Shown here piece after piece: positions 4,457 to 23,332 of a DNA stretch of 64,000 bases (positions are counted from its first letter, which is position 1; every line of letters starts with the position of its first letter). The stretch spans positions 248,001-312,000 of the forward strand of contig NZ_BMZM01000004.1 of the NCBI RefSeq assembly GCF_014652795.1. Reading direction: 5' to 3'. Source of the stretch: Kushneria pakistanensis. Lineage in GTDB: Bacteria > Pseudomonadota > Gammaproteobacteria > Pseudomonadales > Halomonadaceae. Position numbers and translations under genes: made by a program. A model generated the notes under the pieces. The model saw only the letters and a program-made list of their open reading frames with translations, was not told the DNA's origin and did no database searches.

Positions 4457-5218
4457 ATGAACGATTCCATCATGACGCTGTTGGACAAGTATCACCTGAT
4501 TGCCGCCTTTGCCGTGATCGGCCTGACCATGTTCGTCTCGCACTGGATGAGCAAACACCTGACCGCCAATCGACTGCACGGCTCGGCGATCGCCATTTTG
4601 ATCGGGCTGGCGCTGGCCTACTTTGGCGGCATCTATACCGGCGGCAGCCACGGGCTGGCGGATGTGTCGCTGTTTACCGGACTGGGCCTGATGGGCGGCG
4701 GGATGCTGCGTGATCTGGCGATCATCGCCACCGCCTATGGGGTGCGCTTTTCCGAGATTAAAAAGGCCGGCATGCGCGGGTTGATTGCGCTCTTTGCCGG
4801 TGTGCTGGTGTCCTTTTTCGCCGGCGCCGTAGTGGCCGTGGGCTTTGGCTACACCAGTGCGGTGGATATCACCACCATTGCCGCCGGCGCCGTCACCTAC
4901 ATCGTCGGGCCGGTCACCGGCGCCACGCTCGGGGCCAGCTCCGAGGTCGTGGCGCTCTCGATTGCGGCAGGGCTGGTGAAGTCAATTCTGACCATGATCG
5001 TGACCCCCATGGTGGCGCGCATGATCGGGCTGGATAACCCGCGCTCGGCGATGATCTTTGGCGGGCTGATCGGCACGACCAGCGGTGTGGCAGCAGGCCT
5101 TGCGGCCACCGATGCACGGCTGGTGCCCTATGGGGCTATGACGGCGACCTTCTACACCGGGCTGGGAATACTGCTGGCCCCGACGCTGTTGTTTCTGGCC
5201 GTACGGCTGTTTTTCTAA
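4457..5218 (+). CDS. madM: Malonate transporter subunit MadM
   Basis: A 253-residue multi-span membrane protein, the large MadM subunit. It has the repeated Gly/Ala-rich transmembrane segments and the ITTIAAGAVTYIVGPVTGATLGASSEVVALSIAAGLVKSI and FGGLIGTTSGVAAGLAATD blocks of the family. GGAG is 7 bases ahead of the ATG. It is the last gene of the malonate operon; the next gene is convergent. MadLM imports malonate that MatB then activates. Confidence 0.92.
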   Translation: MNDSIMTLLDKYHLIAAFAVIGLTMFVSHWMSKHLTANRLHGSAIAILIGLALAYFGGIYTGGSHGLADVSLFTGLGLMGGGMLRDLAIIATAYGVRFSEIKKAGMRGLIALFAGVLVSFFAGAVVAVGFGYTSAVDITTIAAGAVTYIVGPVTGATLGASSEVVALSIAAGLVKSILTMIVTPMVARMIGLDNPRSAMIFGGLIGTTSGVAAGLAATDARLVPYGAMTATFYTGLGILLAPTLLFLAVRLFF

Positions 5219-6290: not shown

Positions 6291-7589
6291 TCATTGTGGC
6301 TGAGGCAGTCGAATTTGAAAGCCTGCGCCCCCCAGAGGCGCGTCTTCAATGGTCAGGCTGCCATCCTGCACCGTGATGGCCTCGCGACTGATGGCAAGTC
6401 CCAGTCCGAAGCCACCCGTGGCACGATCGCGGCTTCTGTCCAGACGGTAGAAGGGCGTAAAGATATTGGCCTTTTCGTCGTCAGGAATACCGATACCGTC
6501 ATCCTCTACCTGAATGCACAGCATGCCATCGCGGTGAGTGGCCGTGATTCGAATGTGCTGTCGGCAATAGCGCATGGCGTTGCTGATCAGATTCTGCAGG
6601 GCCCGGGCGGTGAGACGCGGCTCCAGGGTGACCGGTGTGCCGGCCTCGATATGCACCTCAAGGTTGATGTGGCGCTCCTCGAGCGGTTCGGCAAAGGCGC
6701 TGAGCACGCTGTCCAGATACGCCTCGATGGTGAGGGTGGTTTTTTCAAGATGCTGTCGAGGGGACTGCAGACGCGTATAGGAGAGAAGCTCCTGCACCAG
6801 CGCGTTGAGCTCGTTGATGTGGGTCTTCATCTCATCAATACGTCTGGCGGCCTCGGGGGTCATGGGGGTGTCGGCGACCAGTGCCAGACCGAAATCGAGC
6901 CGGGACAGCGGCGTGCGAAGCTCGTGGGAGACGGCGTTGATCAGATCGCGCTGGCGGGCCAAAAGCCCTTCAAGCTCGTCGGCCATGCCATCAAAGACGC
7001 CGGCCAGCTCGCCCAGGTTCGAGTGGGCGGGGATTTCGGTACGGGCATCGAGATGCCCCTGGCCCAGCCGCCGCGCCGTGGCCTTCAGGCGTTCGAGATC
7101 CTGCCAGTGCGGTCGCCACCAGAGAAATACGCCACCCATTAAAATGGCGCCGATCAGCAAATTGGTGAGCCAGTAGATCAGATCGATATCCAGCGGCAGG
7201 GCGTCCATCGAAATTTCGAGCAGCTGACCATCACCAATGTAGAGGCGTACCTTTTCCGGCAGTCCGTCGGCATCCAGCGTGACAAGCGGTTTGCCACGCA
7301 TGAGCTTGTGGCGTTCGTGCGCACCGATATCGGATGTATCGATCGGCAGCATCCTGAGCCGCTCGGCCGGAAACCTGGCCGCCAGCTCCGGCATCTGCTC
7401 GCTGCGCTCTTTGGGCGTCAGATCGGCCAGACGGTCCTCAAGCAGATAGAGAATCCCCTGATACTGCGCCACGCCGTAGCTTTCAAGGCGGTGCTTGAAC
7501 AGATTGATGACCAGCCAGGGCACGGCATAGGAGGCCGCGCCGTAGCTGATCAGCAAAATGAGAAACAGTCGAATCAATATTCTGGGCAT
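6291..7589 (-). CDS. rstB: Sensor histidine kinase, RstB-like
   Basis: A 432-residue inner-membrane kinase, almost the length of E. coli RstB (433). Order: TM1 (about 5-27), a short periplasmic domain of about 105 residues, TM2 (LLIGAILMGGVFLWW), HAMP, the H-box HELRTPLSRLDFGLAL, then the HATPase with N box NLISNAMRYC, G1 DDGIGIPDDE and G2 GGFGLGLAISREA. It lies 34 bases after rstA on the same strand. The signal is unknown; in E. coli RstB is linked to PhoP/Mg2+ and acid. The neighbouring arn operon suggests an envelope-stress input here. Confidence 0.85.
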   Translation of the reverse strand: MPRILIRLFLILLISYGAASYAVPWLVINLFKHRLESYGVAQYQGILYLLEDRLADLTPKERSEQMPELAARFPAERLRMLPIDTSDIGAHERHKLMRGKPLVTLDADGLPEKVRLYIGDGQLLEISMDALPLDIDLIYWLTNLLIGAILMGGVFLWWRPHWQDLERLKATARRLGQGHLDARTEIPAHSNLGELAGVFDGMADELEGLLARQRDLINAVSHELRTPLSRLDFGLALVADTPMTPEAARRIDEMKTHINELNALVQELLSYTRLQSPRQHLEKTTLTIEAYLDSVLSAFAEPLEERHINLEVHIEAGTPVTLEPRLTARALQNLISNAMRYCRQHIRITATHRDGMLCIQVEDDGIGIPDDEKANIFTPFYRLDRSRDRATGGFGLGLAISREAITVQDGSLTIEDAPLGGAGFQIRLPQPQ

Positions 7590-7623: not shown

Positions 7624-8322
7624 TCAGACTTCCCATTCGGTGCGGCTCATCAGATAGCCACGCCCCCAGACGGTCTTGATGCGCCGCGGATCGTTGCCGG
7701 CATCTTCAAAGCGTCGCCGGAGCTTGGAAATGGCGACATCGACCGTGCGATCAACGCCGTTGAACTCGATGCCGCGCACCTGCTGAAGCAGCTGATCACG
7801 GCTCTGGACCTCGCCGGCATGTCGGGCCAGCGCCACCAGCACGTTGAACTCGGCACTCGACATGTCGATCTCGCGACCCTGCCAGTGCACCAGGCGCTCA
7901 CTGGTATCGATGTGCAGCTGTCCGATCACGATACGATCGTCCGGTACGGTTTCGGGCGGGGTGCTGCGACGCAGCAGGGTGCGAATGCGGGCCAGCAGAA
8001 GGCGCGGTTCACACGGCTTTGGAATGTAATCATCGGCGCCCATCTCAAGGCCCAGCACCTGATCATGGGTATCGTCCCGGGCGGTAAGCATCAGAATCGG
8101 CAGCCCCGGATAATCGCGGCGCAGCTGCTGACAGACCCTGAGCCCGTCCATGCCCGGCAGCATCACATCAAGGATGACCAGCACCGGCTTTAGTCGGCGA
8201 ACATGTTCGCAGGCCGTATCCCCACGTGCGGTGGTATGCACCCGGTAGCCGTGCTGGCCCAGATAGGCCGCTATCAGCTCGGCAAGCGGGGTGTCGTCTT
8301 CAACAAGCAGCAGATCGCCCAT
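7624..8322 (-). CDS. rstA: Response regulator, OmpR family, RstA-like
   Basis: A 232-residue OmpR/PhoB-type regulator. The receiver has the acidic pair ED at 8-9, the phosphoacceptor Asp52 in VILDVMLPGMDG, Thr80 and Lys102 in KP. The C-terminal DNA-binding wing includes RDQLLQQVRGIEFNGVDRTVDVAISKLRRRFED and VWGRGYLM. It is divergent from arnB, with only about 70 bases to the first conserved element of the arn promoter. It is the most obvious candidate to bind the direct repeats found before both arnB and the RND pump genes; this is inference. Confidence 0.87.
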   Translation of the reverse strand: MGDLLLVEDDTPLAELIAAYLGQHGYRVHTTARGDTACEHVRRLKPVLVILDVMLPGMDGLRVCQQLRRDYPGLPILMLTARDDTHDQVLGLEMGADDYIPKPCEPRLLLARIRTLLRRSTPPETVPDDRIVIGQLHIDTSERLVHWQGREIDMSSAEFNVLVALARHAGEVQSRDQLLQQVRGIEFNGVDRTVDVAISKLRRRFEDAGNDPRRIKTVWGRGYLMSRTEWEV

Positions 8323-8392: not shown

Positions 8393-8449
8393 CTTTTTCA
8401 CAACTTCCACCGACTCTTTTACACCTGCTCAAAAGCCGATCGTTAGTAT
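8393..8449 (+). promoter_or_regulatory. arn operon promoter and putative regulator direct repeat
   Basis: Three elements are visible: CTTTTTCACA (8393-8402), CTTTTACACC (8416-8425) exactly 23 bases later, and a -10-like TAGTAT (8444-8449) 20 bases after TTTACA. The 23-base repeat distance (two DNA turns) suits an OmpR-family dimer or dimer pair, and the poor -35/long spacer suits an activated promoter. The same three elements at identical distances occur at 18026-18082. Confidence 0.6.
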
Positions 8450-8482
8450 CAGCACTCCCGCATTTGCCGGGGTTTTCTTCTC

Positions 8483-8626
8483 ATGCTGACGGTCACGACG
8501 CTTCTTCTGTTGAAGGTCACGGCGTCACGGCCGGCGCCAACAGCGCTCGGCGCGACAAGAAAAACACCGGGCAAAATCGGGACGGCGCTGTCAGCACTGT
8601 CGGCGCCGGGTTTTCCTACTACCTGA
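8483..8626 (+). other. Possible leader ORF upstream of arnB
   Basis: An open frame of 47 codons (MLTVTTLLLLKVTASRP...) starts 34 bases after the -10 and ends 14 bases before the arnB ATG. A CCGGGG stretch lies 12 bases upstream as a weak ribosome site. Its first codons and upstream bases resemble the start of the RND adaptor gene at 18109, so it may be a translated leader or a leftover of a copied promoter segment. The evidence is only positional. Confidence 0.25.
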
Positions 8627-8640
8627 CCACCGAGCACGCC

Positions 8641-9834
8641 ATGACCGCCATGCACGACGATGCCTTGCCCCTGTGCCGCCCCGCCCTGAATGACGCCGAT
8701 ATCGACGCCGTGGTGGCAGTACTTCGTTCCGGCTGGATCACGACCGGCGCCCGAAGCGCGCAGCTTGAGCAGGATATCTGCCGTCTGACCGGCGCCTTCG
8801 AGGCCGTTGCGCTCAGCAGTGCCACGGCCGGTATGCATCTGGCGCTGCTGGCGCTGGGTATTGGCCCCGGTGATGAGGTCATTACCCCCTCCATGACCTG
8901 GGTCTCGACTGTCAACATGATCGCTCTGACCGGGGCCACGCCGGTGTTCGTGGACATTGAGCCCGACACGCTGATGACCACCGCCGAGCAGATCGAGGCG
9001 CTGATCACGCCCAGAACCCGACTGATCATCCCGGTGCATTTTGCCGGCGCCTCACTGGATCTGGACCCCATTTACGGCCTGGCCGAGCGCCACGGCATTA
9101 CCGTAATCGAGGACGCCGCACACGCGCTGGGCGCACGCTACAAGGGGCGGCCGGTGGGCGCCCGGGGCCACTGCATTTTCTCCCTGCACGCCATCAAGAA
9201 TGTGACCTCGGCCGAAGGCGGCGTGTTCACTACCTTCGATCCGGTGCTGGCCGACAGAATCCGACGTCTGAAATTCCACGGGCTTGCCGTGGATGCCTTT
9301 GATCGGGAGACCCATGGACGTGCCCCGCAGGCCGAGGTCATCGAACCGGGGTTCAAATACAACCTGCCCGATATCAGCGCTGCTCTGGCGCTGGGCCAGC
9401 TTGAAAGACTTGAAGACATTACTGGCGCACGCCAGGCGCTGGCCGGGATCTACTTCGAGAAGCTCAGGGACATTCCCGGTATCACGCCGATTCAGTCTCC
9501 CGCGCATGAGCATGTTCACTGCCGACACCTGATGATCGTGCAGGTGGACCCTGACGTGGCAGGCGTTGATCGCAATCAGCTCATCGCTGAACTCAAGGCC
9601 CGAAATATCGGCGCCGGCATCCATTTCCTTCCGGTGCACGTTCAAAAATATTACCGCGACCACTACGCCGACCTTTATGACCGGCCCATGCCCGCACTTG
9701 CCAATACGACGCTGGTCGGAGGGCGGATCTGTTCATTGCCCCTGTTCCCCGACATGACCCCACAGGATGTCGAGCGCGTCATCAATGCGCTGAAAGCAAT
9801 AGTGCTCCCGAATGAAAACAGTGACCCCAAATGA
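8641..9834 (+). CDS. arnB: UDP-4-amino-4-deoxy-L-arabinose--oxoglutarate aminotransferase
   Basis: A 397-residue PLP-dependent DegT/DnrJ/EryC1 aminotransferase. The N-terminus [27 protein letters not shown] fits E. coli Arn[20 protein letters not shown] binds PLP phosphate/ring and [14 protein letters not shown] carries the Schiff-base Lys. The frame is open back to 8374, but those residues have no family counterpart and cover the promoter, so ATG 8641 is used (8650 is possible). The product makes UDP-L-Ara4N from the ketopentose. The stop overlaps the arnC start as ATGA. Confidence 0.93.
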
Positions 9835-10886
9835 AAAATAATCAGCCCATCACCCTGGTCTCCGTGGTCATTCCTGTGTTCAACGAGGAAGTGACCCTGC
9901 CCGAACTGGTCCGGCGCACCACAGAGTCCTGTCAGGCTCTCAGGCAGCCCCATGAACTGATTCTGGTCGATGACGGCAGTCAGGACGGCAGCGCGGCCCT
10001 GATCGAAGCCATGTCAAAACGTCCGGACAGTGGCATTGTCGGGGTGATCCTCAATCGGAACTACGGTCAGCATAACGCCATCATGGCGGGCTTTGAGCAG
10101 GCGCGCGGCGATGTCGTCATCACCCTTGACGCCGATCTGCAAAACCCGCCGGAAGAAATCCCACGGCTGGTGGCCAAAATCGAGGAGGGCTTTGACTCGG
10201 TCGGCACGGTGCGCAAAAAGCGGCGCGACACACTGCTGCGTCGGCTGCCGTCAAGGCTGGTCAATCGGGCCGTCAAGATGGCCACCGGGGTCGAGATGAC
10301 CGACTACGGCTGCATGCTGCGCGCGTATCGGCGTCACGTGGTCGACGCCATGCTCGGCTGCCATGAAAGAAGCACCTTCATCCCCATTCTGGCCAACAAC
10401 TTCTCGCGTCGTACCACCGAAATCGACGTTCACCATGACGAGCGCGCCGACGGCCATTCGAAATACAGCCCCATGAAGCTGATCAGTTTGATGTTTGATC
10501 TTCTGACCAGCATGACGACCGCACCGCTTCGCATGCTCAGCCTGCTGGGCGGCGCCATGGCGCTGTTTGGCGTGGTCTTTGGCCTGTTTTTGATGGTGCT
10601 GCGTCTGGCGCTGGGCGCTGCGTGGGCCGGCGATGGCCTCTTTACGCTTTTCGCCATCCTGTTCGTATTGATCGGCGCGCAGTTTATCGGCCTGGGCCTT
10701 TTGGGCGAGTACATCGGCCGGATCTACAGCGATGTTCGCGCCAGACCCCGCTTTTTCGTTCAGGACCTGCTGATTGGCAGGGGCGTGTCCGAGCGAAGAA
10801 CGTCCGGTATTTCAAAAGAAGCGCCCGCTATTTCAAAAGAAGTTTCCGGTATCTCGAAAGAAACGACCCGCCAGACGGCGCATTGA
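9831..10886 (+). CDS. arnC: Undecaprenyl-phosphate 4-deoxy-4-formamido-L-arabinose transferase
   Basis: A GT2 glycosyltransferase of 351 residues, longer than the E. coli enzyme (322). [16 protein letters not shown] opens the GT-A fold; [12 protein letters not shown] contains the metal-binding DxD; two C-terminal membrane spans (about residues 235-260 and 268-292) anchor it to the inner membrane. The extra length is a charged tail with three 7-residue repeats ([21 protein letters not shown]), encoded by three 21-base repeats. It moves L-Ara4FN from UDP to undecaprenyl phosphate. Confidence 0.92.
10806..10868 (+). repeat. Three 21-bp coding repeats in the arnC tail
   Basis: Units at 10806-10826, 10827-10847 and 10848-10868 share the core ATTTCAAAAGAA (ATCTCGAAAGAA in the third). 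They code ISKE heptads at the very C-terminus of ArnC, after the last membrane span, and end 18 bases before the arnC stop and 32 bases before arnA. Confidence 0.8.
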
Positions 10887-10899
10887 AGAAGACAACGAT

Positions 10900-12888
10900 A
10901 TGAAAGCCATCATTTTTGCGTATCACAATTTCGGCTGCGTGGGCCTCCAGAGTGTTCTGGACAGCGGTATCGAAATCGCCGCCATTTTTACCCATGTGGA
11001 CGATGCCAGCGAAAACGTCTTTTTTGGCTCGGTCGCCAAGCTGGCCGCCCAGCACGGTATCCCCGTGCATGCGCCGGAAAACGTCAATCATCCGATCTGG
11101 ATCGACAAGATCCGCATGATGCAGCCGGACATCATCTTCTCCTTTTATTATCGCCATCTGATCTGTCAGGAAATACTCGATATTGCCGAGCAAGGCGGCT
11201 TCAACCTGCACGGCTCGCTGCTGCCGGCCTATCGTGGGCGCGCGCCGATCAACTGGGCGCTCGTCAATGGCGAGAAGGAAACCGGCCTGACGCTGCATCG
11301 CATGACCCGCCAGGCCGATGCCGGCGACATTTTCTATCAGAAGCGCCTTGCCATCAGCGACGCCGATGACGCCGCCACACTGCACCAGCGCATGGTCGTT
11401 CTGGCACGGGAGATGCTCAATGAAGCGCTGCCGGAACTGATCAATCACCGGCTGGTGCCGGTGGCACAGGATGAAACAAAAGCCAGCACCTTTCCGCGGC
11501 GCACGCCCGAAGATGGCGAGCTTGACTGGTCACGTGATGCTCGCAGCCTTTTCAACCTGGTGCGTGCGGTGACCGAACCCTATCCAGGAGCGTTTACCTT
11601 CATGGGCGAGCGCAGGATCACGATCTGGAAGGCAAGAGCAGACCAGCAGCAGCATGACGTGAAGCCCGGTACCATCGTCTCTCTTTCCCCCCTGACGATT
11701 GCCTGCGGCCAGGGGTCACTGATCGTGGATGCCGCGCAGAGCGAGCAGGGGCTTTATCTGAGCGGTGAACGGCTGGTGAGCGAGCTGCACCTGGCGCCCG
11801 GCATGCAGTTCGGACCGTCCGCCAGCAGTCTGCTGGCCAAAAGAAAGCGTACCCGAGTGCTGATTCTGGGCGCCAATGGCTTCATCGGCACTCACCTGAC
11901 GCGTCGTCTGCTGCAGGAAGAAAAATACTCCGTGTATGCCATGGACGTCAGCGCCAGTCAGATCTCGGAGTTTCTGCCACACCCCAATTTCCACTTTGTG
12001 GAAGGTGATATCACCATTCATAACGAATGGATCGAGTATCAGATCAAGAAATGCGATGTGGTGCTGCCGCTGGTAGCGATCGCGACACCCATTGAATACA
12101 CGCGCAATCCGCTACGGGTATTTGAGCTCGATTTTGAAGAAAACCTCAAAATCATACGCAGCTGCGTCAAGTACAAAAAACGCGTCATCTTCCCGTCGAC
12201 GTCCGAGGTGTACGGCATGTGCACCGATGAAGCCTTTGACGAAGAGACCTCTCCCTTGATTGTGGGCCCCATTAACCGCCAGCGCTGGATCTACTCGGTC
12301 TCCAAGCAGCTGCTGGATCGGGTGATCTGGGCCTATGGCATCAAGGAAGGACTGAAATTTACCCTGTTTCGTCCCTTCAACTGGATGGGCACGCATCTGG
12401 ACAACCTGGGCTCGGCACGCATTGGTTCAAGCCGTGCCATCACGCAGCTCATTCTCAACCTGGTGGAAGGAACGCCCATCAACCTTATCGATGGTGGCGA
12501 GCAAAAGCGCTGCTTTACCGATATATCCGATGCCATCGAGGCACTCTTTCGCATCGTGGAAAACACCGATGGCGTCTGTGATGGACAGATCATCAATATC
12601 GGGGCACCGGAGAACGAAGCCAGCATCAAGGAGCTGGCCGAAAGCCTGGTCGTACGGTTTGAACGGCATCCGCTGCGCGATCGGTTCCCGCCCTTTGCCG
12701 GCTATAACCTGCTGGAGAGCACATCCTTTTATGGTGACGGTTATCAGGATGTCCAGCATCGTCAGCCCTGCATTCGTAATGCCAAAAGGATACTGAACTG
12801 GGCGCCGACCACGCATTTTGAAAGCACCATCGAGCAGACGCTGGACTTCTTCCTGAAAGAAGCGCTGGAAGAGCAGGCCCATGCGTGA
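10900..12888 (+). CDS. arnA: Bifunctional ArnA: formyltransferase / UDP-glucuronate decarboxylase
   Basis: A 662-residue two-domain enzyme (E. coli 660). The N-terminal formyltransferase has Asn102, His104 and Asp140 in the expected places ([12 protein letters not shown]...; QADAGD). The C-terminal SDR domain has the NAD motif [10 protein letters not shown], catalytic STSEVYG and YSVSK (Tyr-x-x-x-Lys). It oxidatively decarboxylates UDP-GlcA and later N-formylates UDP-L-Ara4N. The longer open frame from 10774 is rejected: the ATG at 10900 follows GAAGAAG and matches [10 protein letters not shown]. Confidence 0.95.
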
Positions 12889-13777
12889 GCCCGTCACACA
12901 AGTCGGTCTGCGCATCGATGTAGACACCTACCGAGGCACCCTGAAGGGGGTGCCTCGATTGCTGGACATCCTGGCCCGCCATGAGATCAGGGCCTCCTTT
13001 TTCTTTACGGTGGGCCCGGACAACATGGGGCGTCATCTCTGGCGACTGCTGCGACCGGACTTTGTCAAAAAGATGCTGCGCTCCAGGGCCAGCAGCCTTT
13101 ATGGCTACGACATTCTCCTCAAGGGGACGCTGTGGCCGGGGCCGGATATCGGCTGGAAGCTGGGTCACCTGATTCGTCAGACGCACCAGATGCAGCACGA
13201 AACGGGCCTGCATGCCTGGGATCATCACCGCTGGCAGACCCGCATCGATCGGATGAACCCGGCCGAGATCCATCGCGAGATCGAGCAGGGCCATCACCGC
13301 CTCGAGATGCTGCTTGATGCGCCCGTCACCTGTAGCGCCGTGGCCGGCTGGCGCTGCAACGAGACAGCGCTTGTCGAAAAGGAGCGGTTCTCCTTTCGAT
13401 ACAACAGCGACTGTCGTGGCGAGAGCATCTTTATGCCCGAGGGCTTGGGGACGCCGCAGATCCCGGTCACGCTGCCGACCTATGACGAGCTGATCGGTCA
13501 GCACGGCGTCACCGATGACAACTACAACCAGCATATTCTCGAGCGCATCGAACCCGGGCGGCTGAATGTGTACACGATTCATGCCGAAGCCGAGGGGATT
13601 GCCTGCGCGAGCATGTTCGAGAAGTTTCTGGTCGCGGCCGCCGGACGCGGCATTCGGTTTGTGCCTCTGGGCGCGCTGTTGCCGGCGGATCTCAACACGC
13701 TGCCCGTAGGCAGGCTGGAAAAAACCGGGTTATCAGGGCGGGAAGGGTGGGTCGCCCGACAGGCCATTCTTTCCTGA
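12881..13777 (+). CDS. arnD: 4-deoxy-4-formamido-L-arabinose-phosphoundecaprenol deformylase
   Basis: A 298-residue NodB-type polysaccharide deacetylase that removes the formyl group from the undecaprenyl carrier. [11 protein letters not shown] supplies the catalytic/metal Asp pair, and [14 protein letters not shown] supplies the metal His residues; [10 protein letters not shown] and YNSDCRGES are ArnD-specific. It overlaps arnA by 8 bases, so the two are translationally coupled. Confidence 0.94.
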
Positions 13778-13783
13778 CAAGGC

Positions 13784-15451
13784 ATGATCAACATGAAAAG
13801 AACGTTCAGGCCTGCCGGGTGGTTTCTGGTCACGGGCTATTTTCTGGTGGCGTATCTACTGACGCTGAACGCCCCGGCGCTCTGGTCACCCGATGAGCTG
13901 CGCTACGGCGAAATGTCACGAGAGCTTCTGGCCCGGAGGGACTGGGCCGTGCCGCATTTCAACGGGCTGGTCTACTTCGAAAAACCAATCATGGGCTACT
14001 GGCTCAATGCCTTTGCCCAGATGCTGTTTGGCGAGACCAACTTCGCGGTCCGATTCATGTCGGCCCTGTCAGCCCTGGGCGGGGCGTTTTGCATCGTGTG
14101 GCTGGTGCGACGTCTCTGGGGCGCCGACCGGGCCTGGCTGTCGGGCGGCGTTTACCTGAGCCTTTTCATCGTGATGGCGGTGGGCACCTACAGCGTGTTC
14201 GACAGCTTTCTGGCGTTCTGGCTGACCGTGACCATGGTGGCCTTTTATGCGGCGCTGGAGTCCTCCTCATATCGTGAGCGCTGTCTTTATTATCTGCTGG
14301 CGGGGCTGGGCTGCGGCGGCGCCTTTCTGACCAAGGGCTTTCTGGCACTGGTGCTGCCGTTGATGGTGGTGGTGGCCTATAGCCTGGTGCAGCGGCGTGT
14401 CAAAACCCTGATGATTTACGGCTGGATCAGCGTGACCAGCGCACTGATCGTGACGCTGCCCTGGGCGCTGGCCATCCACTTCAGGGCGCCGGATTTCTGG
14501 CACTATTTCTTCTGGGTCGAGCATATCCATCGCTTCCTTGCAGCGGATGCCCAGCACGCCGCTCCGGTCTGGTTTTTCGTGCCGGTACTGCTTCTGGGAC
14601 TGATGCCCTGGACGCCCGTGGCGCTGCCGGCCCTGGCCCGACTGCGCGGTTCGCTCGCATCGCCTCTGGTGCGCTATGCGCTGCTGTGGGCGGTATTGCC
14701 CTTTATCTTTTTCTCCCTGTCCAGGGGCAAGCTTGCCACCTATATCCTGCCGTGCATGGCGCCACTGGCCATTTTGATCACCCACGCCCTGGGCCGGATG
14801 TTTGAAAGTCCGGGCGGGCGACGGTGCCTTCGACGTCTCTCCAGCATTCAGACGCTGGCCATGCTGGTCATGGCACTGGGCGTTGCGCTGGGCTTCTGGC
14901 TGGAACTGTTGCCGCTTGACGACGGCGAAGGCTACAAGGCGGGACTCTGGGTACTGTCTTTTCTTGTCTGGAGTGCGTGTCTTGCAGGGGCGGCCCGTAC
15001 CCGCAATATCAGAGGCTTTTTTGCGCTGTACATGCTGGCGCCCGTCGCATTTTTCATGCTGTTCGGGTTTGCGCTGCCTGATCGCACCCTCAAGGCCAAA
15101 CAGCCTGAAGGGCTCGTTCATCGGGTGGCCCCCTGGGTGAAGGAAGACACCGTTCTGGTTGCGGATTACCCCACCATCATGTCGGCGTTCAACTGGTATC
15201 TGAAACGCGATGACGTCTTTCTTTTCAAGCATCAGGGCGAGATGGAATACGGCCTGAGCCAGGCCGATGCCCGCCACCGGTTCATTGATGCCCGCGGGAT
15301 GGAAGACTTCATTGCCGATCAGCGTCGCCATCACGACGTCGTGGTTGAAATTCGAAGGCGCTCGTCTGATGAGAGCGATCTGCCGCCATCCGATCGACTG
15401 CTCCGGCATGGGCCTTACAGCGTTCTTTTCTATAAAAGGAGCGAGTCTTGA
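13784..15451 (+). CDS. arnT: Lipid A 4-amino-4-deoxy-L-arabinosyltransferase
   Basis: A 555-residue GT39/PMT-like membrane glycosyltransferase (E. coli 550). The first periplasmic loop has the essential acidic motif SPDELRYGEMSRELLARRDWAVPHFNGLVYFEKPIMGYW; about 12 transmembrane segments and a periplasmic C-terminal domain follow. It transfers L-Ara4N from undecaprenyl phosphate to lipid A phosphates at the periplasmic face, lowering the charge that polymyxin and cationic peptides need. It begins 6 bases after arnD; arnE overlaps its end. Confidence 0.94.
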   Translation: MINMKRTFRPAGWFLVTGYFLVAYLLTLNAPALWSPDELRYGEMSRELLARRDWAVPHFNGLVYFEKPIMGYWLNAFAQMLFGETNFAVRFMSALSALGGAFCIVWLVRRLWGADRAWLSGGVYLSLFIVMAVGTYSVFDSFLAFWLTVTMVAFYAALESSSYRERCLYYLLAGLGCGGAFLTKGFLALVLPLMVVVAYSLVQRRVKTLMIYGWISVTSALIVTLPWALAIHFRAPDFWHYFFWVEHIHRFLAADAQHAAPVWFFVPVLLLGLMPWTPVALPALARLRGSLASPLVRYALLWAVLPFIFFSLSRGKLATYILPCMAPLAILITHALGRMFESPGGRRCLRRLSSIQTLAMLVMALGVALGFWLELLPLDDGEGYKAGLWVLSFLVWSACLAGAARTRNIRGFFALYMLAPVAFFMLFGFALPDRTLKAKQPEGLVHRVAPWVKEDTVLVADYPTIMSAFNWYLKRDDVFLFKHQGEMEYGLSQADARHRFIDARGMEDFIADQRRHHDVVVEIRRRSSDESDLPPSDRLLRHGPYSVLFYKRSES

Positions 15452-15801
15452 ATACGACTCTTCTTTTTATCATTTCGCTGCTCTCAAGCGTCGCCAGCCA
15501 TTACTGGCAAAAGCGAACGGCGATCTATTTCGCGTGCTATCCCGGGATGGCGCTGTGGAAACGAGTGCTCTGCTACCAGCTGATGCTGTCGGTCTTCTTT
15601 TTGCTGCTGGGTGCGGTCACCTGGCTTTACGTGCTGCGTGACTGGAGTGTCTCGATGGCCTATCCGATGCTCAGTCTCAACCTGGTGCTTGTGATGCTGA
15701 TCTCGAAATTCAGCTTTGGCGAAGTGCTGTCGGTCCATCACTGGGTGGGCTGTGGCGTCATCCTGCTGGGCGTGGTGGTCATCGTGGCGTCTACAGGATG
15801 A
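15448..15801 (+). CDS. arnE: L-Ara4N-phosphoundecaprenol flippase subunit ArnE
   Basis: A 117-residue, four-span EamA/SMR-like protein (E. coli 111). SSVASHYWQKRTA and WSVSMAYPMLSLNLVLVMLISKFSFGE match the family. It starts within the arnT stop (4-base overlap) and its stop overlaps the arnF start. With ArnF it flips the carrier-linked sugar to the periplasmic side of the inner membrane. Confidence 0.9.
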   Translation: MNTTLLFIISLLSSVASHYWQKRTAIYFACYPGMALWKRVLCYQLMLSVFFLLLGAVTWLYVLRDWSVSMAYPMLSLNLVLVMLISKFSFGEVLSVHHWVGCGVILLGVVVIVASTG

Positions 15802-16226
15802 GCCCATCGATACGGTTTACGGACATGGCGCTGGTGGCGCTGAGTGTGGTGCTGGTGTCCACCGCGCAGCTTTCAATGAAGTGGGGCATGAGCCTTTTGC
15901 CGGTGGAGGGACTTGATCCCGACGTGATCGGCATTGCGCTGTCGGGGGGCGCCTGGCCGCCGCTTCTGGCCGTGGGGGCCGGGCTTGGGTGCTACGCGCT
16001 GTCGATGCTCTGCTGGGTGCTGGCCCTTCGAGCCGTGCCCCTGGGCGTAGCCTATCCCTTTTTGAGTCTGAGCTATGTGCTGGTCTATGTCGGCTCGCTG
16101 TGTCTGCCGGGGCTTGCGGACACCTTCTCGTGGCTGAAGCTGGCCGGTATCGCACTGATCATGACAGGGGTGGCCATCACCTTTTACGGCGGCTCGAAAA
16201 CGGTTCACCGGACATCCGGCACTTGA
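15798..16226 (+). CDS. arnF: L-Ara4N-phosphoundecaprenol flippase subunit ArnF
   Basis: A 142-residue, four-span partner of ArnE (E. coli 128). It has the typical STAQLSMKWGMSLLP and VPLGVAYPFLSLSYVLVYVGSLCLPGLADTFSWLKLAGIALIMTGV blocks. The ATGA overlap with arnE indicates coupled translation. This completes the arnBCADTEF set in the usual enterobacterial order, except that no pmrD or ugd is adjacent. Confidence 0.9.
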   Translation: MSPSIRFTDMALVALSVVLVSTAQLSMKWGMSLLPVEGLDPDVIGIALSGGAWPPLLAVGAGLGCYALSMLCWVLALRAVPLGVAYPFLSLSYVLVYVGSLCLPGLADTFSWLKLAGIALIMTGVAITFYGGSKTVHRTSGT

Positions 16227-16269
16227 GGAACATACCCAATGACAGGCATGAACAAGCGGGCAGGGCGGC

Positions 16270-18000
16270 ATGATGAACAGCGATAAAATGGCATTTTTAC
16301 GATCGTGGCAGTGTTATCTGGTGCTGGGGATCGTCGCGGTCGTTGTCAGCGGGCTTTTTGATCATGACGTTCTGACCCCGGACGAGCCTCGGGTCATGGC
16401 CGTCATCAAGAGCATGTTTCTTTCCGGCAATCTGGTCATTCCGGAGTTTGCCGGCATTCCCTTTGTGGAAAAGCCGCCGCTCTTTTTTGCCTACGCGGTG
16501 GGGCTGATGCACCTGACCGGGCTGGATGCCTTGATGGCCGGGCGCCTGGGGCTTGCGATCCTGTGTCTGCTGACGCTTCTGGCCACCTTTCGGTTTGCCT
16601 GTCTGCTGCAGGGCAGGCGCTTTGGCTGGGCCAGCGTTGCCGTGCTGGCAACACTTGAAGGGTTTCTCGTCAACTTTCACTGGCTGCGGGTGGATGCCGC
16701 GCTTGCGATGACCAGCATGGGCGCCATCTGGGCCTTCGGCGAGGCGTATCTGCGCGGTCGTTACCGCTGGCTTCTGGTGGCGGGTGTGTTCACCGGGCTG
16801 GCCTTTTTGAGCAAGGGCCCGGTGGCCATTGTGCTGTGCATCGCCCCGATATGGCTGCTGCTGTTCATGCGCCATCTTTATCTGCTGAAAGCGAATCTGC
16901 TGAAAACGACGTTTGAGCGCCGTAGTGCATGGGGTCGCATACTGGTCTGGCATCTTGTCGGCATGGCGCTGATGGCGCTGGTCATGGCCGCCTGGATCTA
17001 TCCCTTTTATCTAAAGGCTTCCCCGGAGCTCTGGCATGCCTGGTTCTGGGACAATCAGGTCGGGCGCCTGACCGGAGCCTCGACCGATACGCTGGGCCAT
17101 AACCACGACGGTGAACCCTTTTACTACGCCAGCGGTGTTATCGAATACACGCTGCCCTGGAGTGGTTTTCTCATCGCCTGGCTGGCGGTGACGTTCAGGG
17201 AACTTGTCACGCTGCGCGGGCGGATTCGCTGGCAGACGGCGCTGATGCTGGGCTGGCTGGTTCTGACCATGCTGGTACTGGGCATCTCGGTCACCAAGCG
17301 CACCATGTATATGGCGCCGCTGATGCCCATGTTTGCCCTGATGATTGCCGATGCGGCACTGCGCTTTCAGGGCCGAATCGCCACCTGGTATCGCCGCGGC
17401 TGGGCGCTGGCCATGGGGGTCTCGCTGGCCGTTTTTGCCGTTACGCCGCTGTGGGCACAGTACTTTCCGAAGGAAGCTTCCAGCGAGCTGATGCAGTGGC
17501 TGACCAGCTGGCACATTACGGCGCCGGTGATTGGACTGGCACTGACGCTGATGGTCTGCGTCGAAATAACCCGCTGGCCCGGCTGGGTCAAATTCGCCCT
17601 GATCACGATGCTCTTTTTCTGCAGCGGATTGAATCATCTGATGCCGGCGGTGGATGTAGCCAAGGACATGCGACGCGAGCTTCACGCGCTGGCGGTACAA
17701 ATTCCCGAGGCGCAGCGCACCAGAACGGCCAGCGTTGGATTTACCGAAACCATGTCTTCCATCTTCTACCTCTACAGCGACTGGACTGTGCCCGGGGTCG
17801 ATAGCGCGCGAGCACGTCGGATCCTGCTGGGGCAGGACGAGGAGTATGACTACCTGCTGCTGGATCGCTACAACTCGACGAAGGACCCGCTGACCTGGCT
17901 CGACCTGCCGGCGGATACACCCTATCGGGTACTGGCCGTGGGACACCCGCGAAGCAACAAGAAAAACGATGCCGTCTACTGGCTGACGGCCGCGCCCTGA
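16270..18000 (+). CDS. Second GT39-family (ArnT-like) membrane glycosyltransferase
   Basis: A 576-residue protein with the same layout as ArnT: TM1, then a periplasmic acidic motif TPDEPRVMAVIKSMFLSGNLVIPEFAGIPFVEKPPLFF, about 11 more spans, and a C-terminal soluble domain. It is clearly diverged from the ArnT three genes earlier. It starts 43 bases after arnF and is probably the last gene of the operon. The acceptor and donor are unknown; it may add another undecaprenyl-linked sugar to lipid A, core or a protein. A start at 16273 is equally possible. Confidence 0.75.
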   Translation: MMNSDKMAFLRSWQCYLVLGIVAVVVSGLFDHDVLTPDEPRVMAVIKSMFLSGNLVIPEFAGIPFVEKPPLFFAYAVGLMHLTGLDALMAGRLGLAILCLLTLLATFRFACLLQGRRFGWASVAVLATLEGFLVNFHWLRVDAALAMTSMGAIWAFGEAYLRGRYRWLLVAGVFTGLAFLSKGPVAIVLCIAPIWLLLFMRHLYLLKANLLKTTFERRSAWGRILVWHLVGMALMALVMAAWIYPFYLKASPELWHAWFWDNQVGRLTGASTDTLGHNHDGEPFYYASGVIEYTLPWSGFLIAWLAVTFRELVTLRGRIRWQTALMLGWLVLTMLVLGISVTKRTMYMAPLMPMFALMIADAALRFQGRIATWYRRGWALAMGVSLAVFAVTPLWAQYFPKEASSELMQWLTSWHITAPVIGLALTLMVCVEITRWPGWVKFALITMLFFCSGLNHLMPAVDVAKDMRRELHALAVQIPEAQRTRTASVGFTETMSSIFYLYSDWTVPGVDSARARRILLGQDEEYDYLLLDRYNSTKDPLTWLDLPADTPYRVLAVGHPRSNKKNDAVYWLTAAP

Positions 18001-18025
18001 ATGGGTTTGGTGGCCACTGATTATA

Positions 18026-18082
18026 CTTTTTAACATTCCGGCCGAGATCTTTTACATGCGCTGATACAAAAGCCATTAGTAT
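18026..18082 (+). promoter_or_regulatory. RND operon promoter, near copy of the arn promoter
   Basis: CTTTTTAACA (18026-18035), CTTTTACATG (18049-18058, again 23 bases later) and TAGTAT (18077-18082, again 20 bases after TTTACA). Flanking bases such as CAAAAGCC before the -10 and AATTTACCGGG/CATTTGCCGGG after it are shared with the arn promoter too. A common activator is therefore likely. Confidence 0.6.
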
Positions 18083-18108: not shown

Positions 18109-19266
18109 ATGCTTGCCGCTCACCGTCGAGTATCTGTCCTGCTGCTGTCATTGATCTGCGGACTCTGTCTGCTGCTTTCGGCCTGTCACCACAGCGAGTC
18201 CGAGGAGGAGGCGCCATCCTCGGCCGGCGTCACGGTCGAGGTGGCGCAGGCAGCACCGCTGGTGGTGACCACCGATCTGAACGGTCGCCTGAAGGCCTCC
18301 AGGGTTGCCGAGGTGCGCGCCCGGGTCTCCGGCATTGTTCTCAAGCGCCTTTATCAGGAAGGCCACCAGGTCTCGGCCGGCGATACGCTCTTTCAGATCG
18401 ACCCCGAGCCCCTGCAGGTTGAAGTCGCACGGGCAAGGGCGGCGCTGGACAAGGCCGAGGCCAACCGGTCGGACGCCGGCAGAAAGGCGCAGCGCTATGA
18501 AAGGTTGATCAATGCCAATGCCATCAGCCGGCAGGACTATGAAAGCATTCGCGGTCTTTCGCAGCAGGCCGATGCGGAGGTGGCCTCGGCGAAGGCCGAG
18601 CTGGCCAGCGCGCGGTTAAAGCTTGGATATGCCACGGTCACCGCACCCATCAGCGGCCGGATCGGTCCGGCCCAGGTGACCGAAGGTGCACTGGTCGGTC
18701 AGAACGAAGCCACCCTGATGGCGACCATTCAACAGCTTGACCCCATCTATGCCGATATCACCCAGCCACTGGAGCAGTACACGGCGATTCGCCAGGCCGG
18801 GGGCGAGGGGGATCGGATCGACGGCACTGATGTCATGCTGATTCAGCCGGGCGATGAGGCGCGGGCAGGGCAGCTGCTGTTTTCGGATACCTCTGTCGAT
18901 CAGGGCACCGGGCAGGTCACACTGCGCAGCGCCTTTGCCAATGCCGACCAGTCACTGTTGCCTGGCGCCTTTGTTCAGGTGCGCGTGCCCGTAAAACGCC
19001 TAGAGAAGGGTCTGACGGTGGCCCAGCGCGCCGTTCAGCGCGACGGTGCCGGTGAGCCGGTGGTCATGATCGTCAACGACGAGGACCGAATCGAAAAGCG
19101 CACGCTGACACTGGGCGGCGTCCATGACGGGCGATGGATCGTGCTGAACGGGCTCAAGGAGGGGGATCGTGTAGTGACCTCGGGCCTTCAGCAGGTCAGC
19201 CCCGGCATGAGCGTCAATGTTGAATCCGGCTCGGCGTCTGAACCCTCTGCAGGAAGCTCCCCCTGA
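18109..19266 (+). CDS. RND efflux periplasmic adaptor lipoprotein
   Basis: A 385-residue membrane-fusion protein of the AcrA/MexA type. The lipoprotein signal ends in LLSAC (Cys26). It has a lipoyl half-motif VRARVSGIVLKRLYQEGHQVSAGDTLFQID, a coiled-coil hairpin rich in Ala and Glu (about residues 100-165), the second half-motif YATVTAPISGRIG, then the beta-barrel and membrane-proximal domains. It links the inner-membrane pump with an outer-membrane channel. The pump gene follows without a gap; no TolC/OprM gene is adjacent, so the channel must be encoded elsewhere. Confidence 0.92.
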   Translation: MLAAHRRVSVLLLSLICGLCLLLSACHHSESEEEAPSSAGVTVEVAQAAPLVVTTDLNGRLKASRVAEVRARVSGIVLKRLYQEGHQVSAGDTLFQIDPEPLQVEVARARAALDKAEANRSDAGRKAQRYERLINANAISRQDYESIRGLSQQADAEVASAKAELASARLKLGYATVTAPISGRIGPAQVTEGALVGQNEATLMATIQQLDPIYADITQPLEQYTAIRQAGGEGDRIDGTDVMLIQPGDEARAGQLLFSDTSVDQGTGQVTLRSAFANADQSLLPGAFVQVRVPVKRLEKGLTVAQRAVQRDGAGEPVVMIVNDEDRIEKRTLTLGGVHDGRWIVLNGLKEGDRVVTSGLQQVSPGMSVNVESGSASEPSAGSSP

Positions 19267-22200
19267 ATGTCACGCTTTTTCATTGAACGCCCGGTCTTTG
19301 CCTGGGTCATAGCCCTTTTCATCATCCTTGCCGGGCTGCTGGCCCTGCCGCGTCTGCCGGTGGCGCAGTACCCGGCGGTGGCACCGCCCCAGATCGAGCT
19401 GGCCATGACTTATCCCGGCGCGTCTGCCGAGGCCATCGATGCCGGGGTGGTCAGCCTCGTGGAGGAGGAGCTCAACGGCGTCAACCATCTGCTGTATTTC
19501 TCCTCCGACAGCAGCCAGGGCATGGCCACGATCACGGTCACCTTCGAGCCCAGTACCAACCCGGAGCTGGCGCGGGTCGACATCCAGAACCGGATCAAGA
19601 GCGTGGAATCGCGTCTGCCGGCTGCCGTGCGTCAGCAGGGCATTCAGGTCGATGAGGTCTCGGCCGGCTTTTTGATGATGGTGACCCTGAGCTCCCCGGA
19701 CAACAGTCTGGATGAAACCGCGCTCAGCGATTACATGGTACGTAACGTGGCCAACGAGCTGCGGCGTGTTCAGGGCGTGGGCAAGGCGCAGGTGTTCGGC
19801 GCCGAGCGGGCCATGCGCATCTGGCTTGATCCGGCCAGACTGGTGGCCTACAACCTGACGCCTGCTGACGTGAACCAGGCCATTGCCGATCAGAACATTC
19901 AGATTCCGGCCGGCAGCATCGGGGATCTGCCCTCGAGCAGCGAGCAGGAGATTACTGCGCCGGTGGTGCTGGATGGCCAGCTCTCCACACCGGAGGCGTT
20001 CGAGGCGATCATCCTGAAGGACAATGGCCGCGGTGCCCGGGTCACGATAGGCGATGTGGCCCGCGTCGAGATCGGCAGCCAGAGCTATGGCTACGGGACA
20101 CGGCTTAACGGCAAACCCGCGGTGGCGATGGGGATTCAGCTTGCGCCGGGCGCCAATGCCATGAGCACGGCAACCCAGGTGCGCGAGCGCATGGCGGCGC
20201 TGTCCGGTCAGCTTCCCGCCGGAATGGCCTATCAGATTCCCTATGACACCTCACCGTTCGTCAAGGCCTCCATCACCCAGGTCATCCATACGCTGATCGA
20301 GGCGATGATCCTGGTGTTTGCGGTCATGTTCCTGTTTCTGCAAAACATCCGCTACACGCTGATTCCGGCGCTGGTGGTGCCGGTGGCGCTGCTGGGTACC
20401 CTGGCGTGCATGTACCTGTTCGGCTTTTCCGTCAACGTGCTGACCATGTTTGCCATGGTGCTGGCAATCGGCATTCTGGTGGATGACGCCATCGTGGTGG
20501 TGGAAAACGTCGAGCGACTGATGGTCGAGCAGCGGCTGTCGCCGCGCGAGGCCACCCGCCGGGCGATGGGGGAGATCTCCGGGGCGATTATCGGCATCAC
20601 GCTGGTACTGTGCGCCGTGTTTATTCCCATGGCATTCATGTCGGGCTCGGTGGGAGTGATCTATCGTCAGTTCTCGATGGCAATGGCGGTCTCCATTCTG
20701 CTGTCGGCCTTTCTGGCCCTGACGCTGACCCCGGCGCTGTGTGCCACGCTGCTCAAGCCGATGACAAAAGGCGAGGCGCACCGCCACAAGGGCTTTTTTG
20801 GCGGGTTCAATCGGGGCTTTGAGCGCATTACAAATGGCTATACCCGCTGGGTGGGGCACGCCATCGGCCGCATCGGGCGCTATCTGGTGGTGTACGCCAT
20901 GCTGCTGCTGGTGATGGCGTTTCTGTTCTGGCGGCTGCCGTCTTCCTTCTTGCCGGTCGAGGACCAGGGCTATGTCATGACCGATATTCAGCTGCCGGCC
21001 GGCGCCTCCGAGAATCGCACCATTGAGGTGGCCCGTCAGATCGAGGCGTTTGATGACCAGGACAATGACATCGACAGTACGCTGATCCTGCTCGGCTTCA
21101 GCTTTTCGGGGTCGGGACAGAACGCCGCGCTTGGGTTTACCACCCTGAAGGACTGGCAGGCGCGCAGTGACAAGGGCGATGCCGACAGCGTGGCTCAGCG
21201 GCTCAACGACGCCTTCAGTCGCATCAGTGAAGCCGTGGTCTATAGCCTGCTGCCGCCGCCCATCGATGGCATGGGCACCTCCAGCGGCTTCGAGTTTCAG
21301 CTGCAGGACCGCGGCGGTCACGGGCAGGCCGCTCTGACAGCGGCAAGGGATCAACTGCTTGAAAAGGCCGCGTCGAGCAAACAGGTTGCCAACGTGCGGG
21401 AAGCGGCGCTGCCGCAGACGCCGCAGGTGCGCATCGAGATCGATCGGCGCAAGGCCAGCGCCCTGGGCGTTGCCTATCAGGATATCGGCAGCACCCTGTC
21501 GACCGCGCTGGGCTCCTCCTATGTCAATGATTTCCCCAACAACGGCCGTATGCAGCAGGTGATCGTGCAGGCAGAGGGCTCGCAGCGTCAGCAGGTCGAG
21601 AGTCTCATGGCGTTTGAGGTGCGCAACAGCGAAGGCAGGATGGTGCCCCTGTCGGCCATGGCCACCGCCCAATGGGAGAGCGGCCCTGCCCAGCTGAGCC
21701 GTTACAACGGCTACTCCGCCGTCAATATTTCCGGCGAGCCCGGTCGGGGCACAAGCTCCGGGGAGGCCATGAAGGCGATCGAGGCGATGGTGTCAACGCT
21801 GCCTGACGGCTACGCCATCGAGTGGACCGGAACCTCGCTGCAGGAGCGGCTCTCCGGCAATCAGGCGCCTGCGCTGCTGGTGCTGTCGCTGCTGGTCGTG
21901 TTTTTGTGCCTGGCGGCCCTGTATGAAAGCTGGGCCATTCCGCTGTCGGTCATGCTGGTTGTGCCGCTGGGCATTATCGGCGCGGTAGTGATGGTGAGCC
22001 TGCGCGGCATGCCCAACGATGTCTTTTTCAAGGTGGGCCTTGTGACCATCATCGGGCTTTCGGCCAAGAACGCCATTTTGATCATCGAGTTCGCCAAATC
22101 GCTTCACGAGCAGGGGATGCCGCTCAGGGAAGCCTGCATTCAGGCCGCTCGACAACGTTTTCGCCCCATCATCATGACCTCGATGGCCTTTATTCTGGGC

Positions 22201-22398
22201 GTGGTGCCACTGGCGATTGCCAGCGGAGTAAGCTCGGCCAGCCAGAAGGCCATCGGCACGGGTGTGGTCGGCGGTATGCTCAGCGCCACGCTTGCCATCG
22301 TATTTGTGCCGGTGTTTTTCATGCTGGTCATGGGGACGCTGGCGCGGTGGCGCAAGCGTCGTGGCAATAACGTTCAGGACAGCGTTCAGGATCAGTAA
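19267..22398 (+). CDS. RND multidrug efflux pump, AcrB/MexB family (HAE1)
   Basis: A 1043-residue inner-membrane proton antiporter (AcrB is 1049). The proton relay is present: Asp406-Asp407 in GILVDDAIVVVENVER and Lys934 in GLSAKNAILIIEFAK. The N-terminus MSRFFIERPVFAWVIALFIILAGLLALPRLPVAQYP and the two large periplasmic loops are typical. The ATG directly abuts the adaptor stop. HAE1 pumps export drugs, detergents and bile-like amphiphiles; co-control with the arn genes would combine lipid A modification with efflux. Confidence 0.94.
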   Translation: MSRFFIERPVFAWVIALFIILAGLLALPRLPVAQYPAVAPPQIELAMTYPGASAEAIDAGVVSLVEEELNGVNHLLYFSSDSSQGMATITVTFEPSTNPELARVDIQNRIKSVESRLPAAVRQQGIQVDEVSAGFLMMVTLSSPDNSLDETALSDYMVRNVANELRRVQGVGKAQVFGAERAMRIWLDPARLVAYNLTPADVNQAIADQNIQIPAGSIGDLPSSSEQEITAPVVLDGQLSTPEAFEAIILKDNGRGARVTIGDVARVEIGSQSYGYGTRLNGKPAVAMGIQLAPGANAMSTATQVRERMAALSGQLPAGMAYQIPYDTSPFVKASITQVIHTLIEAMILVFAVMFLFLQNIRYTLIPALVVPVALLGTLACMYLFGFSVNVLTMFAMVLAIGILVDDAIVVVENVERLMVEQRLSPREATRRAMGEISGAIIGITLVLCAVFIPMAFMSGSVGVIYRQFSMAMAVSILLSAFLALTLTPALCATLLKPMTKGEAHRHKGFFGGFNRGFERITNGYTRWVGHAIGRIGRYLVVYAMLLLVMAFLFWRLPSSFLPVEDQGYVMTDIQLPAGASENRTIEVARQIEAFDDQDNDIDSTLILLGFSFSGSGQNAALGFTTLKDWQARSDKGDADSVAQRLNDAFSRISEAVVYSLLPPPIDGMGTSSGFEFQLQDRGGHGQAALTAARDQLLEKAASSKQVANVREAALPQTPQVRIEIDRRKASALGVAYQDIGSTLSTALGSSYVNDFPNNGRMQQVIVQAEGSQRQQVESLMAFEVRNSEGRMVPLSAMATAQWESGPAQLSRYNGYSAVNISGEPGRGTSSGEAMKAIEAMVSTLPDGYAIEWTGTSLQERLSGNQAPALLVLSLLVVFLCLAALYESWAIPLSVMLVVPLGIIGAVVMVSLRGMPNDVFFKVGLVTIIGLSAKNAILIIEFAKSLHEQGMPLREACIQAARQRFRPIIMTSMAFILGVVPLAIASGVSSASQKAIGTGVVGGMLSATLAIVFVPVFFMLVMGTLARWRKRRGNNVQDSVQDQ

Positions 22399-22415
22399 CG
22401 CTACACCTCCACCTG

Positions 22416-22446
22416 CCTGCCCGGCTCGATAACCTGGCCGGGCAGG
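22416..22446. terminator. Hairpin after the RND operon
   Basis: A perfect 10-bp stem, CCTGCCCGGC (22416-22425) with GCCGGGCAGG (22437-22446), 18 bases after the pump stop. It is followed by G/A rather than T, so it may act as a Rho-assisted end or a 3-prime stabilising structure. The rest of the gap to the tRNA (to 22691) shows no gene. Confidence 0.45.
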
Positions 22447-22657
22447 GGGGAGGGAAAACGCCGGCTTGCCGTGGACGCCTTATTGCACAAAGCGGCATGT
22501 AGGAGAAGCGTTGCTCGCGCCGCACGCCATGGCCACCCCTGCACCTCGTTGCCGAGAGGGGTTAAAGCCGGCATTGGCGGCTGCCTGATCATGGAAAACG
22601 ACTTAGCGCCTTGAAAGAGCGATAAAATCCACTCTGTTCATGCAGGCTCCGGGCCGC

Positions 22658-22663
22658 TAGAAT
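22658..22663 (+). promoter_or_regulatory. Putative -10 of the tRNA-Arg gene
   Basis: TAGAAT lies 28 bases before the mature tRNA, inside a small inverted repeat GGCTCC (22645-22650) / GGAGCC (22664-22669). The -35 is poor (TGTTCA with a 17-base spacer). Confidence 0.35.
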
Positions 22664-22691
22664 GGAGCCCGTTGATGCGCAACGCATCACT

Positions 22692-22768
22692 GCCCGAGTG
22701 GCTCAATTGGATAGAGCAACGGCCTTCGAAGCCGTGGGTTGCAGGTTCGAGTCCTGCCTCGGGCGCCA
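22692..22768 (+). tRNA. tRNA-Arg (anticodon UCG)
   Basis: 77 bases that fold as a complete cloverleaf. The acceptor stem is GCCCGAG/CTCGGGC, the D stem GCTC/GAGC, the anticodon stem ACGGC/GCCGT with loop CTTCGAA, and the T arm GCAGG-TTCGAGT-CCTGC. The CCA end is encoded. Loop position 34-36 reads TCG, decoding the arginine codon CGA. Confidence 0.96.
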
Positions 22769-22880
22769 CTTCTGATCTTCCTCCCTGTTATCATCTCTCC
22801 ATCGCTGCCCGTTCAGAGGGTAATCCTGCGTTGATAATTTCTGCGTCTGAACTTCCGATGCTTGTACAGGGCAGAGCGTG

Positions 22881-23300: not shown

Positions 23301-23332
23301 ACATGACCATTGAGACAAAAAATCATCGAGAC

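Follow-up and report, generated by a model that had tools for sequence, protein, structure and literature searches.

That one system controls both lipid A modification and efflux is already known from bacteria other than the one described here. In Pseudomonas aeruginosa, activation of the two-component system ParRS increases mexXY and arnBCADTEF-ugd together (PMC5626926; also PMC10295115, both as far as the available excerpts go), that is, one two-component system raises both the modification of lipid A with 4-amino-4-deoxy-L-arabinose (L-Ara4N) and a pump of the resistance-nodulation-division (RND) type. These excerpts also have ParRS lowering oprD and do not describe a single locus for its targets; the available part of PMC12748117 contains no statement tying ParRS to mexXY. 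In Klebsiella pneumoniae, the genes of a two-component system and an RND pump are neighbours in the crrBAC-kexD region, KexD adjoining crrB, and the region has been linked to colistin resistance (excerpts of PMC10436536). The present work deals with a stretch of 64,000 nt of contig NZ_BMZM01000004.1 from the halophile Kushneria pakistanensis (genome size, 3.52 Mb), hereafter the window, in which the genes of an RstB-like sensor kinase and an RstA-like response regulator, an arn operon and an RND pump lie together, and in which the arn and the pump promoters have a DNA element in common, hereafter the box. Unlike ParRS as described in these excerpts, the window has regulator, arn and pump together, two sites and an RstA-like regulator. 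In K. pneumoniae CrrAB affects arn indirectly via CrrC and PmrAB, whereas in the window arn lies within the locus and has its own copy of the site. A first reading of this DNA from its letters alone, hereafter the sequence-only reading, had held that well-known species do not pair arn with an RND pump; as to co-regulation this was wrong, as the excerpts on ParRS (arn and mexXY), and also those on crrBAC-kexD and on the RstAB-type systems below, show.

RstA-type regulators form the other group of close relatives. In Pseudomonas fluorescens, RstA binds to the promoters of EmhABC and MexCD-OprJ and activates them (PMC8562477), and so, as in the window, an RstA-like regulator goes with an RND pump, the best model for the window adaptor being MexC; in the accessible part of that paper arn does not occur as the start of a word and no shared locus is described. 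The classic RstA box is TACA-N6-TACA (PMC8562477 and PMC4117788, in the parts available). In the Harveyi clade of Vibrio, RstAB governs dgkA-eptA and lies close to this target operon (PMC12064563), and in V. cholerae almE is a target of CarSR, another name of RstAB, which is responsive to cationic peptides (PMC9178039). As far as the partial texts go, these Vibrio systems resemble the window in the RstA-type control of lipid A modification with resistance to colistin or polymyxin, but the modification is by EptA (phosphoethanolamine) or AlmE, not L-Ara4N, and no RND pump is described in the cluster. The AlmE modification is that with glycine. An action of RstA on arn is not shown in the available parts of PMC12064563 or PMC10295115, a literature search on arn/RND gene clusters found nothing, and what was accessible of the literature on comparable systems describes neither a single-locus form nor a regulon of two sites nor the 21-bp pitch reported below.

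We consider it quite probable that the adjacent RstA/RstB-like system activates both the arn and the pump operons of the window from the shared site, that is, that the locus is a self-contained envelope-defence regulon of two operons. The full element, CTTTTTMACA-N13-CTTTTACA-N20-TAGTAT, is located at 8393-8449 before arnB and at 18026-18082 before the RND adaptor gene, and the gap from box to TAGTAT is exactly 20 bases at both sites, which confirms the three elements at identical distances that the sequence-only reading had noticed. A scan of the window with up to 3 mismatches gave 2 box matches (100 shuffles, mean 0.00). In the whole genome the exact box, expected 3e-5 times per genome by an independent-base estimate, matched 2 times (reversed-pattern control, 0), and with up to 3 mismatches there were still 2 matches, both in the arn and pump promoters (reversed control, 5); the occurrence at many unrelated promoters that had been named as counter-evidence was thus not found in its own genome. 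The 3-mismatch pattern is common by chance elsewhere, 48 of 58 genomes having a match. Because the box pattern was derived from the data themselves, a test of the 150-base stretches upstream of 36 chosen open reading frames (ORFs) of the window was added. The best 57-base ungapped match among them was that of arn and pump (33/57, rank 1 of 630 pairs, the next pair having 32), and a value of 33/57 was attained once in 2000 dinucleotide shuffles; in this test the arn stretch was positioned to include the box, ending at 8483 and not at the arnB start (8641), and many of the other stretches fall within genes. The similarity of the two promoters is modest overall, and what sets it apart is the blocks with the distances between them. 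Aligned with gaps, the two promoters agree at 85% over 54 bases, a value that was discarded for the ungapped 33/58, since gaps inflate such figures.

The regulator and the box strictly co-occur among the genomes of the family. A search with the second glycosyltransferase family 39 (GT39) protein of the locus pointed to Vreelandella zhanjiangensis DSM 21076 (Halomonadaceae), in which the pump and arn genes are adjacent and the regulator is 94% identical to that of the window, the next-best regulator there being 48% identical. Among 275 family genomes a regulator ortholog (E<=1e-85) was found in three, namely its own genome, G221 and G295 (taken as V. zhanjiangensis again, its coordinates being equal to those of G058), so that two family genomes besides its own have 94% identical orthologs; the kinase orthologs of the two relatives are 81-82% identical over residues 24-431. 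The exact box was found in the same 3 of 275 genomes, with two sites each and all six before arnB or the adaptor gene (reversed-pattern control, 0 among the genomes listed). Among 369 genomes of the class, both the regulator (E<=1e-75) and the full pattern (2 mismatches at most) were found in one, its own, and in nine other members of the genus ArnB (E<=1e-80), the regulator and the exact box were all not found. In a sample of 58 relatives, which contained neither G221 nor V. zhanjiangensis, ArnB (E<=1e-80) was found in two genomes, its own and G026 (56% identical); G026 carries arnB without the regulator and without the exact box, and none of its 8 three-mismatch box sites is near its arnB. 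The locus of regulator and box is patchily distributed. In G026 a near-identical three-mismatch box sequence is also seen at several places (e.g., L048, L054, L057 and L060), which looks like an unrelated repeat.

In the window the genes follow one another as kinase-regulator / arn-GT39 / adaptor-permease, and in V. zhanjiangensis and G221 as kinase-regulator / adaptor-permease / arn; every operon has its own box in both arrangements. The box lies 83 bases before the adaptor start in all three genomes, 245-248 bases before arnB (248, 246 and 245) and 68-71 bases from the regulator start, whichever operon adjoins, and in all three loci one box sits in the divergent intergenic region of the regulator. 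The sequence AGCATACCC near the regulator is common to the loci regardless of the adjoining operon and GTTAATACTTTTT is restricted to the arn promoters; because the former stays by the regulator and the latter goes with the arn promoters, the boxes moved with their operons. Of the single-locus module proposed in the sequence-only reading, sensor, arn and pump stand together in all three loci, but in one of them (G221) no second GT39 adjoins. A six-way anchored alignment of the promoters (140 columns) has 29 invariant columns, 25 of these within the three blocks, and 17 of the 29 are fixed by construction, the sites having been found by pattern. Eight further invariant columns, an A before the first box half, a T before the second and TAGTAT (6 of 6), lie outside the box search pattern. 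Alignment of the upstream regions in the related Halomonadaceae kept the blocks, the spacing and TAGTAT, while the relatives' promoters have not retained CAAAAGCC and TTTRCCGGG, the additional flanking words of the sequence-only reading.

Without gaps, the arn promoter of the window matches those of the relatives at 46/58 and 45/58, and its pump promoter matches theirs at 32/58 and 34/58; outside the blocks the pump promoters agree at 6/32 and 8/32, which is about chance, with the blocks and spacing retained, and the window arn and pump promoters agree at 16/40 outside the searched pattern. Conservation thus extends over the entire element in the arn promoters, and the pump promoter of the window has diverged except in the blocks and spacing, a pattern which looks like that of a maintained, putative binding site. 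These comparisons also bear on the idea that the boxes are a relic, a single promoter having been copied with an operon and the box now being without a common regulator. Such an origin would agree with the presence of all six boxes in linked loci and with the arn promoters being alike across the whole element, but blocks and spacing are kept amid the near-chance similarity outside them, and in gapped alignments of the window with the relatives the 70 bases preceding the arn box and the leader are only 55-58% and 56-59% identical, respectively, so we regard a relic as very unlikely.

In the mechanism which we propose, the RstB-like sensor kinase would phosphorylate the RstA-like regulator, which would bind CTTTTTMACA-N13-CTTTTACA before arnBCADTEF and before the MexC/MexD-type pump, and activation would lead simultaneously to lipid A carrying L-Ara4N and to stronger efflux. 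The half-sites MACA and TACA are spaced 21 bp, versus 10 in the classic RstA box. The two ACA-bearing half-sites would be two helical turns apart and hence on one DNA face, and the inner one would occupy the -35 position, with 20 bases between it and TAGTAT, an arrangement like that of class II activator-dependent promoters. A middle half-site hidden at 10-11 bp was also considered and rejected, as no TACA-like word was seen when the six promoter sequences were compared by eye. The sequence-only reading had named TTTACA-N20-TAGTAT among the shared elements. With a spacer of 20 bases, which is not normal, TTTACA would serve poorly as a -35; we consider it more probable that an activator site covers the -35 region and that TTTACA is its inner half, and the features of the element fit an activator-dependent promoter. 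A sigma-70 scan missed both promoters; it requires a spacer of 16-18 bases, gave 1 site versus 5.3 in shuffles and is little informative. The fixed distance of TAGTAT in six of six promoters might also suggest that an alternative sigma factor uses the blocks as its basal promoter and that they are not a regulator site. Basal promoters, however, are shorter than a 57-base element bearing a repeat, and the genome has two sites only, so this explanation is, if anything, slightly less probable than the relic.

The regulator consists of a receiver and an OmpR-type DNA-binding domain, and the best match of its DNA-binding half is Klebsiella RstA (4nhj), from whose recognition helix, VDVAISRLR, the predicted helix of the window, VDVAISKLR, differs by one conservative change. 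The base contacts of RstA are Arg199, Val203 and Arg207 (PMC4117788, in the part available); by our own mapping Arg199 and Val203 are retained in the window regulator and Arg207 is changed to Lys. The best of the 97 NCBIfam families matched by the regulator is RstA (236 bits, cut-off 330) and the best of the 84 matched by the kinase is RstB (290 bits over residues 1-430, cut-off 478).

Several observations, besides the columns fixed by construction, weigh against control of both operons by this pair. Both of these scores are under the curated cut-offs, so that the pair is judged by sequence to be RstA/RstB-like and not equivalogs, and the top full-length solved structure for the regulator is MtrA and not RstA, the RstA chains listed being single domains. 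The classic box TACA-N6-TACA occurs 0 times in the window. The pump promoter of the window is no closer to its orthologs (32 and 34/58) than to the arn promoters (33-35/58). V. zhanjiangensis and G221 are close (arnB DNA 86% identical), and therefore about four promoters, not six, are independent; with the regulator and the boxes being linked, their co-occurrence across genomes is partly common descent. With 2-3 mismatches there are 13 further box sites in V. zhanjiangensis (reversed control, 6) and 4 in G221 (reversed control, 2). Furthermore, we infer the binding and activation by the regulator and a signal of envelope damage (e.g., cationic peptides), binding and expression being predictions; the proposal of the sequence-only reading that one regulator, most simply the adjacent RstA-like protein, serves both promoters is nevertheless well supported by the co-occurrence and by the retention of the box through the order swap. 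Lastly, its own genome has nine further regulators of the same type (E<=1e-20), one of them 50% identical. The shared regulator may accordingly be another response regulator, such as this paralog or a PmrA/PhoP-like protein, with the adjacent pair controlling something else, and a site differing from the classic RstA box would agree with this. But the exact box is limited to the three family genomes having the adjacent-type regulator, though V. zhanjiangensis also has the 48% identical paralog, and other candidate regulators are abundant (a dozen or more at first look in every family genome listed); in addition, the box in the regulator's own intergenic region precedes whichever operon adjoins. 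A different regulator is therefore unlikely, and the adjacent RstA-like protein is preferred.

A wider proposal, to which we give somewhat less than an even chance, is that of a laterally moving compact resistance circuit with a regulon of two operons, in which an RstA-like regulator reads a new architecture of two half-sites (21 bp) replacing the -35, lipid A charge and efflux are set by one signal, and operon order is free if each operon has its own box. The half-sites two turns apart would perhaps be bound by a pair of dimers that cooperate or by one extended dimer, and the 21-bp pitch raises the question of how OmpR/PhoB-type dimers read spaced half-sites. If the two-operon regulon is true, lipid A charge and efflux, two classical layers of resistance, are under one sensor in one Halomonadaceae locus, and two branches of RstA-type regulons so far described apart, that of pumps in Pseudomonas and that of lipid A in Vibrio, are united. 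Since there are three natural loci in which the operons stand in two orders, and since the site is unique in the genome of the window, the regulon is unusually clean to test.

Table 1. Features of the K. pakistanensis locus (window coordinates; bit scores are those of NCBIfam models).
Feature	Position	Strand	Remarks
Sensor histidine kinase, RstB-like	6291..7589	-	Pfam HAMP/HisKA/HATPase_c; best NCBIfam RstB
Response regulator, OmpR/PhoB type, RstA-like	7624..8322	-	Best NCBIfam RstA
Shared box, arn promoter	8393..8423	+	CTTTTTCACA-N13-CTTTTACA
TAGTAT, putative -10 of arn promoter	8444..8449	+	20-base offset constant across six promoters
arnB	8641..9834	+	Best match 584 bits, cut-off 631
arnC	9831..10886	+	Best match 510 bits, cut-off 529
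arnA	10900..12888	+	1141 bits, over cut-off 777
arnD	12881..13777	+	436 bits, over cut-off 382
arnT	13784..15451	+	Sole match, 548 bits, cut-off 567
arnE	15448..15801	+	Named by position and EamA match; syntenic homologs 61-62% identical
arnF	15798..16226	+	Named by position, without Pfam match; syntenic homologs 60-62% identical
Second ArnT-like GT39 transferase, accessory	16270..18000	+	ArnT model 58 bits, cut-off 567
Shared box, pump promoter	18026..18056	+	CTTTTTAACA-N13-CTTTTACA
TAGTAT, putative -10 of pump promoter	18077..18082	+	20-base offset constant across six promoters
RND periplasmic adaptor, MexC/MexX/AcrA type	18109..19266	+	Best match MexC, 358 bits, cut-off 625
RND permease, AcrB/MexD type	19267..22398	+	NF000282, 1485 bits, over cut-off 1250

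The genes of the locus are collected in Table 1. All seven arn genes (B, C, A, D, T, E and F) are present in this order, and the start of arnB is backed by alignment with the two relatives. The arnB leader (8450-8640, about 190 bases) is of similar length in the three genomes; a conserved RNA structure in it was considered and is not claimed, the fold z-scores (from mononucleotide shuffles) being -3.3 in the window and -2.0 and +0.4 in the relatives. The second GT39 is 79% identical in V. zhanjiangensis and was not found beside arn in G221. In Marinomonas spartinae a 58% identical homolog is the sole match among the queried window proteins in the 21.7 kb read around it in two strains, with no arn or regulator match there. 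The pump consists of an adaptor and an AcrB-type permease (MexCD/AcrAB-type RND), the latter being one which we take to be of the HAE1 type. An ORF for an outer-membrane channel as in MexCD-OprJ was not found in the pump operon, no ORF of at least 90 aa lying on the + strand in 22399-23466, before the next gene at 23467-25239; no search for one was made elsewhere in the genome.

To the left of the locus, the gene at 4457-5218, for which we assume the label madM (from no search), is present in 7 of 10 genomes of the genus, its own included. In the six others Mrr follows its homolog, within about 1.1 kb in five and at about 7.7 kb in G009, and the 12.7-15.8 kb read there contain no match to the regulator, arn or pump proteins at E<=1e-10; similarity to the kinase is 27-30% in five of the six loci. 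In G003 a homolog of the window gene 29110-30633 is found within 16 kb. The stretch from Mrr to this gene (6200-29000) is variable, other genes following Mrr in the six genus members, and because of this variability the module was likely gained laterally, or repeatedly lost. The GC content of the module (0.59-0.63) is not distinct from that of the flanking left and right blocks (0.60-0.62). A plasmid origin was considered and set aside, the regulator matching 20 plasmid records at E<=1e-50 with a best identity of only 55.7%. Beside the module, the ORF at 26589-28535 has 33% GC in a window of 59% GC and is ATPase-like by eye; it is perhaps foreign DNA.

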